DNA of 5,499 bases from assembly GCA_017398105.1 (NCBI GenBank), contig JAFQHF010000023.1, positions 1-5,499 of the forward strand. Direction: 5' to 3'. The number at the start of each line of letters is the position of its first letter. Positions within the stretch are counted from its first letter, which is position 1. A program made the position numbers and the translations under genes. This document shows positions 2,650-4,421 of the stretch, in pieces. The notes beneath the pieces are model-generated. The model ran no database searches. It worked only from the letters and a program-made list of their open reading frames with translations, and was not told the DNA's origin. The stretch comes from Oscillospiraceae bacterium. Its GTDB lineage: Bacteria > Bacillota_A > Clostridia > Oscillospirales > Oscillospiraceae.

Positions 2650-3927
2650 ATGGAAAAAACATCGGTTGAAAGATCCATTCACGCAAGAAAAATCAGCCAC
2701 CCCAATTGGATCTACGATACCCTGGGACTGGTTTGGAAGCTGTTTGTTTACCCCAAGTATCACGTGCACTACACCTTCAAGAAGGATTTTCGCAAGGTGG
2801 AGGGGCCGTTCTTCTTCATCAGTAACCATGCGTCCCGCTTAGACTACATCTTCGTGGGCGCACCTCTGCTGCCGCTGAAGATGAATTTCGTGGCAGGCTA
2901 TAACGAGTTCCACCGTTCCCATCTGTCTTTGGTGTTCAATCTGCTTCGGGTGATTCCCAAGAAGAATTTTACGCCGGATCTTTACACGGTGAAGGAAATC
3001 AGCCGGGTCATCAAGTCCGGCCATGGCGTGTGCATTTTCCCGGAGGGTATGAGCTCCATTTCCGGCGCTAACCAGCCTGTGGCCCTGGGCACAGGCAAGC
3101 TGTTCAAGCACCACAAGGTGCCGGTCTACTACAGCGTGATCCGGGGCGGCTATCTTACCAGCCCCAAGTATAACCTTCGTGACCGGGTGGGACATGTAGA
3201 GGTGGAGTATGACCAGCTGTTCACAGTGGAGGACCTGGAACGCATGACACCTGCTGAGATCGAATCCAAGATCAATCATGCCATCTATCATGATGATTAT
3301 GCATGGAACAAGATCCACAAGCACCATTACGACATCGGAGAGAATGGTGCCGAGGATCTGGAAGATTTGCTCTTCTGGTGCCCCCGCTGCGGCAAGCAGC
3401 ACACTATGGCAACCAAGGGTAATACGATATTCTGCACCGAATGCGGCAATGGTGCTACGCTGCTGGATACCTATGAGCTGGTTCCCTTTGACGATAACTG
3501 CGTGATCCCCGAGACCCAGACCGCCTGGTTCAATCTGGAACGGGAGATGATCCGCAAGGAAGTGCAGCAGGAGGACTTCGTGTTGGAAGAGCAGGTGCAG
3601 CTTGGTATGCTGCCGGAATTTGAGTTACTGAAGAATCAGGCGACCTCTGAGATTATCGGCAGCGGAACACTGCGGCTGGACCGTACGGGTCTTAGCTACA
3701 CCGGCACCAAAAATGGTGAGCCCTTTACCTTCCATATTCCCAGCGTGGCATTGCCTACATACGGCATGTGCACGGACCTGAGCCGCTTTTACACCTTCGT
3801 CAACGGAGAATTCGTGGAGTTCTATCCGGAGCATCGCACTGTAGAAAAGTTCTTCCTGGCAACGGAAGAACTGCACCGGCTGAACGGCGGCAAGTGGAAG
3901 GATTTTGATTTCAGTCCGGAAGCCTAA
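2650..3927 (+). CDS. PlsC-type 1-acylglycerol-3-phosphate acyltransferase with C-terminal zinc ribbon
   Basis: This 425-residue protein carries a PlsC/LPLAT acyltransferase domain at about 45-215. It shows the catalytic N59-H60-A-S-R-L-D65 (HX4D) motif, the acceptor-binding F130-P-E-G133 motif, and a block IV-like V157-P-V-Y-Y near 157-161. Family members move an acyl chain onto lysophosphatidate to make phosphatidate at the membrane. Enzymes with this domain are often about 200-260 residues, so there is a long extension. It contains a zinc ribbon, C244-P-R-C247-G and C262-T-E-C265-G, then a beta-rich region at about 335-405 (GSGTLRLDRTGLSYTG onward) that could be a PH/GRAM-like domain, a guess from pattern only. 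No clear transmembrane helix is seen. The ATG follows a GGAAGGGA stretch at moderate spacing. Tandem stops TAA-TAG and a strong terminator close it. The exact acyl substrate is not readable. Confidence 0.85.
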   Translation: MEKTSVERSIHARKISHPNWIYDTLGLVWKLFVYPKYHVHYTFKKDFRKVEGPFFFISNHASRLDYIFVGAPLLPLKMNFVAGYNEFHRSHLSLVFNLLRVIPKKNFTPDLYTVKEISRVIKSGHGVCIFPEGMSSISGANQPVALGTGKLFKHHKVPVYYSVIRGGYLTSPKYNLRDRVGHVEVEYDQLFTVEDLERMTPAEIESKINHAIYHDDYAWNKIHKHHYDIGENGAEDLEDLLFWCPRCGKQHTMATKGNTIFCTECGNGATLLDTYELVPFDDNCVIPETQTAWFNLEREMIRKEVQQEDFVLEEQVQLGMLPEFELLKNQATSEIIGSGTLRLDRTGLSYTGTKNGEPFTFHIPSVALPTYGMCTDLSRFYTFVNGEFVEFYPEHRTVEKFFLATEELHRLNGGKWKDFDFSPEA

Positions 3928-3975: not shown

Positions 3976-4059
3976 TGGTGGGCCAGGTTGGACTCGAACC
4001 AACGATGGTAAAACCGGCGGATTTACAGTCCGCTGCCATAGCCGCTAGGCGACTGACCC
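3976..4059 (-). tRNA. tRNA-Tyr (anticodon GTA)
   Basis: This is an 84-nt class II tRNA with encoded CCA (3978-3976). The acceptor GGGTCAG pairs with CTGGCCC with one G·U, and the discriminator is A. The D stem is GCC/GGC. The anticodon stem GCGGA/TCCGC encloses loop CTGTAAA, with the GTA anticodon at plus positions 4024-4026. A 13-nt variable region holds a short GGT/ACC helix. The T arm is GTTGG-TTCGAGT-CCAAC. All helices are intact. It is last in the four-gene array, 3 nt from the His gene. Confidence 0.97.
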
Positions 4060-4062
4060 ATA

Positions 4063-4138
4063 TGGGGTAGATGACGGGAATCGAACCCGCGATAGGCGGA
4101 ACCACAATCCGCTGCCTTACCGCTTGGCTACATCCACC
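4063..4138 (-). tRNA. tRNA-His (anticodon GTG)
   Basis: This is a 76-nt tRNA including the extra 5' G (G-1, complement of 4138), which pairs with discriminator C (4066), the identity element for histidyl-tRNA synthetase. CCA is encoded (4065-4063). The acceptor GTGGATG/CATCTAC has one G·U. The D stem is GCC/GGC. The anticodon stem is GCGGA/TCCGC with loop TTGTGGT and anticodon at 4103-4105. The T arm is GCGGG-TTCGATT-CCCGT. It looks fully functional. Confidence 0.97.
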
Positions 4139-4143
4139 ATGAT

Positions 4144-4281
4144 TGGTGCGGACAGGGGGTGGTGCTCCGCGCAGCGAATGAATAATACCAATGATTGCCG
4201 GTGGCAATCATACCCTGATACAATCGAACCCCCGACCCACGCCTTAAAAGGGCGCTGCTCTACCAGCTGAGCTATGTCCGC
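4144..4281 (-). tRNA. tRNA-Lys (anticodon TTT), interrupted by a 62-nt insertion in the T arm
   Basis: Read on the minus strand, every standard element is present. The acceptor GCGGACA pairs perfectly with TGTCCGC, followed by A and CCA. The D arm is GCTC/GAGC with AGCTGGTA. The anticodon stem GCGCC/GGCGT encloses loop CTTTTAA, with anticodon TTT at 4246-4248. The variable loop is GGGTC, followed by T stem GGGGG and a normal 7-nt T loop TTCGATT (4228-4222). The 3' T-stem strand CCCCC should follow at once but comes only at 4159, after 62 extra bases. Total length is 138 nt against the usual 76. Because both halves still pair perfectly, the insertion is either recent or tolerated. As written, mature tRNA would carry a huge T-loop extension and probably not work. 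Whether another tRNA-Lys(TTT) exists in the genome is unknown. Confidence 0.85.
4160..4221 (-). other. 62-nt intervening sequence in tRNA-Lys
   Basis: This is the inserted segment between T-loop position 60 and T-stem position 61. On the minus strand it starts GTATCAGGG, contains a perfect 9-bp hairpin ATGATTGCC-ACC-GGCAATCAT, and ends GCGGAGCACCA. Its 3' part shares, in order, GCAATC, GGTAT, TTC, CTGCGCG and a final CCA with the 3' half of the adjacent tRNA-Ser, suggesting derivation from a class II tRNA. No target-site duplication, open frame or known ribozyme core was recognised. Confidence 0.6.
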
Positions 4282-4286
4282 ATATT

Positions 4287-4376
4287 TGGCGGAGCGCGCA
4301 GAACTCGAATCTGATACCGATTGCTCAGTACGATCCGCTTAGCAGGCGGTCCCTGGACCTCCCAGGTTCACGCTCC
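4287..4376 (-). tRNA. tRNA-Ser (anticodon GCT)
   Basis: This is a 90-nt class II tRNA with encoded CCA (4289-4287) and discriminator G, as usual for serine. The acceptor GGAGCGT/GCGCTCC has one G·U. The anticodon loop CTGCTAA (4345-4339) gives GCT, reading AGC/AGU codons. The long variable arm is TACTGA-GCAA-TCGGTA, a 6-bp stem with a tetraloop. The T loop is TTCGAGT. There are small defects: the D stem has only three clear pairs (CCT/AGG), the outermost anticodon-stem pair is A×A, and the outermost T-stem pair is T×C. It is the first gene of the array. Confidence 0.9.
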
Positions 4377-4392
4377 ATATATACTTAATTTG

Positions 4393-4421
4393 TTGAAGAG
4401 TGTTTTGAGGTGTGCTATAAT
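4393..4421 (+). promoter_or_regulatory. Promoter of the P-loop kinase gene
   Basis: TTGAAG (4393-4398, 4/6) is followed after exactly 17 nt by a perfect TATAAT (4416-4421). A TGC directly before it makes an extended -10. Transcription would start near 4428, about 27 nt before the ATG at 4455. This box lies in the 78-bp gap between tRNA-Ser and the kinase gene. No equally good promoter for the minus-strand tRNA array could be found there. Confidence 0.75.

Follow-up and report, generated by a model that had tools for sequence, protein, structure and literature searches.

A dispersed palindromic repeat at the T loop of a tRNA-Lys(TTT) gene in an Oscillospiraceae tRNA array

Rickettsia palindromic elements (RPEs) are known to insert into RNA genes. 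Some families of REP sequences are described as lying inside other palindromes (PMC3733652), and clusters of tRNA genes in archaea are described as associated with mobile elements (PMC6333295). For tRNA genes broken by short repeats of the kind reported here, we found no precedent in the open-access literature. We analyzed a stretch of 5,499 nt from an Oscillospiraceae bacterium, hereafter the window, in which a tRNA-Lys(TTT) gene of a tRNA array (4144-4281, minus strand) consists of two perfectly pairing halves parted by 62 nt, as read directly from the sequence.

The interrupted gene, its array and its uninterrupted allele

The 5' part of the gene (4222-4281, minus strand) holds the 5' acceptor strand, the D arm, the anticodon arm, the 5' strand of the T stem and the T loop, and the 3' part (4144-4159, minus strand) holds the 3' strand of the T stem, the 3' acceptor strand, the discriminator and the encoded CCA end. 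The stems are GCGGACA/TGTCCGC (acceptor), GCTC/GAGC (D), GCGCC/GGCGT (anticodon, with the loop CTTTTAA) and GGGGG/CCCCC (T). The T-loop letters TTCGATT are followed by the 62-nt insert, from 4221 down to 4160 on the minus strand, and then by CCCCC. The split gene was not called by ARAGORN in the window, where the array calls were the neighbouring tRNA-Tyr and tRNA-His alone, and Rfam matched its 5' part alone, at 26.5 bits, below the cut-off of 29. Its identity is no chance match, since 58 nt (4224-4281) are identical in the window, in the relative G002 and in the intact tRNA-Lys(TTT) gene of the relative G529 (locus L094), which is flanked, as in the window, by a Ser-like gene and tRNA-His. 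A sequence-only reading had described a tRNA-Lys(TTT) gene split by 62 nt, with perfect helices once the insert is left out, and both the sequence and the identity with G529 confirm this description. Its placing of the split exactly at the junction of T loop and T stem stands for the right edge, which abuts the 3' T-stem strand exactly, and not for the left edge, where TTCGAGC of the intact gene corresponds to TTCGATT in the window and leaves an uncertainty of 2 nt. The insert may therefore begin directly behind A58 and cover 4160-4223, two bases of the target having been replaced.

The uninterrupted tRNA-Lys of G529 lies in an array of the order Glu-Gln-Cys-Glu-(Ser-like)-Lys(TTT)-His-Phe-Tyr. 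From the T loop onwards, the intact gene reads TTCGA-GC-CCCTC-TGTCCGC, the window TTCGA-TT...CACCA-CCCCC-TGTCCGC and G002 TTCGA-TT...-CCCTC-TGTCAGC. The sole change in the 3' part of the window gene relative to G529 turns a G-U into a G-C pair, and in G002 G3 stands opposite A70, giving one acceptor mismatch (G-A). No duplicated bases were found when the empty site of G529 (TTCGA-GC-CCCTC) was compared with the window and G002, so that no target-site duplication was observed at this one site. Among the ten first relatives, which are MAG loci matched with the plsC-like gene of the window (2650-3927), only G002 gave a full-length match to 4060-4400, with 93% identity over 338 nt, insert included. 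The two assemblies share 85% nucleotide identity over the plsC region, and the insert and flanks of G002 carry their own substitutions relative to the window. In G002, the normal anticodon loop is missing from the Ser-like gene and tRNA-His shows four differences from that of G529, which indicates that decay is further advanced there than in the window. The unaltered halves of the window copy fit a young insertion, in line with the view of the sequence-only reading that they speak against old decay. A tRNA array beside the plsC-like gene was searched for in the first ten relatives and was not there. Upstream of this gene, 2379-2597 matches DNA adjoining the array of G002 (L131 9229-9021) and partly also that of G529 (L130 99-185), hinting at a rearrangement.

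The next genes of the array, tRNA-His(GTG) (4063-4137, minus strand) and tRNA-Tyr(GTA) (3976-4059, minus strand), were identified by both ARAGORN and Rfam. The upstream gene (4287-4376, minus strand) was called by neither program and was recognized from the sequence and from nine aligned loci as a tRNA-Ser(GCT)-like gene with an 8-bp acceptor stem, a 4-bp T stem and a 6-bp D stem. In three of the nine loci, GGAGcG/CgCTCC becomes GGAGaG/CtCTCC, a compensatory acceptor change (the G002 row being incomplete at the 3' end). This unusual 8/4 shape is like that of the 8/4 allo-tRNAs described in PMC7609411. The array of G002 also gave an odd tRNA-Phe(aaa) call (L131 8920-8993) where G529 has tRNA-Phe(gaa).

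At the start of the G002 region stand tRNA-Ala(GGC) and a gene for a tyrosine integrase, which ends about 7 kb before the array, and in G529 a serine recombinase adjoins tRNA-Ala about 6 kb from the array. The G451 region holds a Tn916-type integrase and an actin-like protein, and the G518 region a serine recombinase; the 5.5-kb window itself is without these integrase and recombinase genes. The array may thus be cargo of integrase or recombinase elements, as its surroundings in relatives suggest. Searches with the array and the split gene matched 101 phage records and 60 plasmid records, none covering more than 80% of the query; the 20 matches listed for each were parts of tRNA genes, unannotated at the match, or otherwise labelled. 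The exact 5' half of the split tRNA was not found in viral contigs.

Among the 136 genomes of the genus of G002, only G002 and G529 carry the array allele, and both also match an ordinary tRNA-Lys(TTT), by ARAGORN in G002 and by pattern match in G529, for which reason we regard the split gene as a spare. ARAGORN called an ordinary Gln(TTG)-Lys(TTT) pair, whose tRNA-Lys differs in sequence, in G001, G002, G003, G005 and G006. A pattern for the tRNA-Lys middle, with at most one mismatch, matched 112 of the 136 genomes and not the other 24, these being MAGs, in which absences mean little, and a match to the gene middle being no proof of an intact gene. By eye count, 5 of the 112 matched through CTT or GTT alone, and 107 of the 136 genomes gave a match with the TTT anticodon. 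The genome of the window probably also has an ordinary tRNA-Lys(TTT). In G008, one tRNA-Lys(TTT) and three tRNA-Lys(CTT) calls lie unusually close together in a cluster (L046 1395-1827).

A dispersed repeat and its host hairpins

Searched for in related genomes, as the sequence-only reading had proposed, the insert was present at the same locus in G002 and proved to belong to a dispersed repeat, about 60 nt long, that occurs in 87 of the 136 genomes of this genus (E≤1e-4). G529 is not among these 87. Six of the ten first relatives (G001, G003, G004, G005, G006 and G008) gave short matches with the insert at their centre, in addition to the syntenic locus of G002. At most about six candidates were scored per genome, and one genome gave up to 45 first-look candidates, a figure that is not a copy number. 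The core of the repeat is a hairpin, ATGATTGCC-ACC-GGCAATCAT, followed by ATT...GATTCGCTGCGCGGAGCACCA; in the insert it is a perfect 9-bp hairpin (4191-4211, minus strand), as seen in the sequence and in the predicted fold. We found no report of this repeat in the open-access literature.

For a closer comparison, copies that matched the greater part of the core and had 100 nt of sequence to either side were collected, giving 101 copies, of which 58 were kept as distinct after removal of similar flanks by ungapped comparison. These 58 sites may not all be independent, several having a common host repeat family. The right end of the repeat is fixed and the left end fuzzy: by eye, the distinct copies end on the right with CACCA or a near variant and on the left with sequences like AATTATGG or AATCAAGG, and a terminal GTAG or CGTC tag is absent from all of them. 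Wherever CACCAC occurred, it served as the anchor for the right end, a choice by which the bases at the start of the right flank are biased. In some copies AATCAA/TTGATT flank the core hairpin, and the outer ends do not match each other (by eye). Open reading frames of at least 150 aa contain 12 of the 58 copies, where random positions within these loci would give 40.7; the repeat is therefore mainly intergenic, with mechanical reading frames rather than annotated genes serving as the control. The core also occurred in five viral stretches, which served only as extra copies. The insert with its 5-nt right flank matched two unannotated phage contigs at about 80% identity and had no match in plasmids. 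A larger element with the repeat halves set apart was considered and rejected: in 221 sequences, 106 distinct copies have both halves and one the right half only (L036), and the 15 cases listed as "left only" were interpreted as reverse hairpin readings, as copies that have diverged or as a copy situated at a contig end.

About half of them are enclosed by a hairpin, the 3' arm of which begins at the right end CACCA; this is twice the frequency of the controls. A stem score of at least 5 across the element, with the right arm starting no more than 3 nt from the repeat end, was obtained for 30 of the 58 distinct copies. Re-dealing the left and right flanks gave an expectation of 14.9 (sd 3.0; 0 of 5000 permutations), and shifting the left window within the same loci gave 15.0 (sd 3.2). 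With a thermodynamic test the signal was weaker for longer flanks (26 of 2000 permutations) than for short ones (1 of 2000). The preference for hairpin loops is partial, since 28 of the 58 copies fall below the stem score and some lie beside a palindrome rather than inside it.

GTAG-type REPs are among the host hairpins. At locus L215 (genome G509), repeats like GTAGGGGCGATTATCAATCGCCC flank a RAYT-like gene on either side, and the loop of one of these REP palindromes is occupied by the element (GGGCGATTAATA...CACCA-CGCCCCTAC); the dispersed repeat is thus separate from the GTAG-type REP, inside one of which it lies. Uninterrupted host hairpins exist as well, for example GTAGGGGAGGGTCAAGACCCTCCCCTAC in L211 and GGGCGATTAATAATCGCCCCTAC in L215. 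With its form GGGGG-loop-CCCCC, the T arm of the tRNA resembles these hairpins, and the right end of the element abuts its 3' arm as it does in the REPs. The T arm is thus a hairpin of the kind that the repeat tends to occupy, and this tendency would explain the neat position. In L215, tandem GTAG-type REP palindromes spaced by about 31 nt (1923-2265) were also observed next to the RAYT-like gene.

A Y1 transposase (PF01797) was found in 12 of the 20 genomes searched, 10 of the 14 repeat-bearing and 2 of the 6 repeat-free ones, and none was found in the repeat-rich genomes G001, G005, G461 and G499. Repeat copies occurred in two of 14 Y1_Tnp regions, in L215 directly upstream of the RAYT-like gene and in L211 at a distance of about 1 kb, and 12 shorter, partly overlapping Y1_Tnp regions gave chance-level matches alone. 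No mobilising enzyme could be linked to the repeat, and a RAYT is not established in this role. No paper on RAYT in Firmicutes was found in the open-access literature.

Explanations of the interruption

The results are, in our judgement, very probably explained by a REP/MITE-like palindrome of about 60 nt that inserted into a redundant tRNA-Lys gene of an accessory array and left a young pseudogene. A non-autonomous mobile palindrome would have entered the hairpin loop of the T arm, possibly by moving through a hairpin or single-stranded target, and this would have disabled a spare gene. What we observed of this sequence of steps is the dispersed repeat, the empty allele, the common insertion, the redundancy in relatives and the loop preference. 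Among the origins weighed by the sequence-only reading, a recently broken copy gains support from the dispersed repeat, from the intact allele of G529 and from the separate ordinary tRNA-Lys(TTT) of relatives. Its suggestion of an unknown processing event receives none, as the repeat avoids long reading frames and the acceptor stem of G002 is mismatched. It had also considered an assembly chimera, here with a false join at the repeat. The insert is indeed a repeat with several copies at contig ends, for which reason assemblers probably break on it; however, the diverged G002 assembly holds the same insert between the same halves (93% over the 338 nt), so that two separate assemblies would need the same false joins, and we judge a chimera very improbable. 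An insertion of a general MITE-like kind, with no structural choice of target and a T-loop position due to chance, is an unlikely but more serious candidate. It agrees with the 28 of the 58 copies below the stem score at the junction and with the C-rich right flanks, part of which a C-N-C preference might explain given the anchoring on CACCAC, whereas the excess of pairing flanks over two controls and the uninterrupted host hairpins, such as those of L211 and L215, speak against it.

Other explanations keep the gene at work. A new tiny intron or intervening sequence, removed from the precursor to give a normal tRNA, would agree with the perfect cloverleaf formed by the letters without the insert and with the predicted fold of the 138-nt RNA, in which the acceptor, anticodon and T stems are kept and the insert is a hairpin. 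We nonetheless rate it as extremely improbable, as copies of this repeat occur at numerous, mostly intergenic sites at which splicing would have no obvious purpose, the G002 sister copy combines a G-A acceptor mismatch with decayed neighbours, and an ordinary tRNA-Lys(TTT) match is present in each of the two genomes with the array allele. Moreover, the exact T-loop-plus-repeat pattern, which diverged copies would escape, gave no second tRNA case among the matches examined. It occurred in 4 of 136 genomes of the genus and 14 of 400 of the family; of the 22 matches listed, two were the known place in G002, 12 were read in context, with no tRNA called by ARAGORN on those loci, and four further ones in G461 had the same matched letters as one read in context. 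Group I and group II introns have a catalytic core of a few hundred nucleotides. Both were rejected for this insert of 62 nt, and within 4050-4400 all Rfam matches (E≤1) were to tRNA. The interrupted RNA might also work as a tRNA with a hairpin-tagged, enlarged T loop, as its predicted fold keeps the acceptor stem, the anticodon arm and the T stem. Residues of the T loop and the D loop normally meet to form the tRNA elbow, as described in PMC7609411, and a T loop of 69 nt should disturb it; with the acceptor damage in the G002 sister copy, this makes a working tRNA of this shape highly improbable. We give a very small chance to an interrupted gene that is transcribed and used, be it through a hairpin cut out by a bacterial activity or through a tRNA with a 69-nt T loop that is charged and working.

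Returning to the insertion of a mobile palindrome, we infer that the RNA with the insert has no tRNA function and that the window copy is dead though its halves are perfect. Splicing is neither needed nor supported, and what appeared to be a candidate for a new system of tRNA splicing in bacteria falls away. The observation is real and its cause ordinary, and it exemplifies the decay of an accessory tRNA array through insertion of an ordinary kind; the remaining interest is the repeat's taste for hairpin loops. The results point to a family of mobile repeats of Oscillospiraceae-like bacteria that appears to favour such loops, in REP palindromes and once in the T arm of a tRNA. As the family is present in many genomes, it could show whether tiny palindromic elements move via single-stranded hairpin targets.

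Comparison with known elements

The repeat resembles REP sequences in being short, palindromic, mainly intergenic and present in many copies per genome, and differs from them in having no GTAG or CGTC tag, a length of about 60 nt, a 9-bp core hairpin and a fixed CACCA end. With MITEs such as ERIC and NEMIS it has in common a small, non-autonomous, dispersed form and a pair of inserted and empty alleles; however, it shows no clear terminal inverted repeats at its outer ends and, at the one site compared, no target-site duplication. We therefore do not file it in a named family, given the missing tag and the missing duplication at this one site. RPEs are likewise described as short palindromes inserted within genes (PMC3733652), a likeness of description; they are described in reading frames, whereas our repeat avoids them. 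ISPpu9, ISPsy8 and others are described as mobile DNA with REP palindromes as target (PMC1525189), and these are full insertion sequences, whereas the repeat is an element of about 60 nt without a gene. Finally, the array is like tRNA arrays on mobile elements in being dense and multi-isotype and in having, in relatives, integrase or recombinase genes in the same region, and the array of the window differs from them by its interruption by a repeat.
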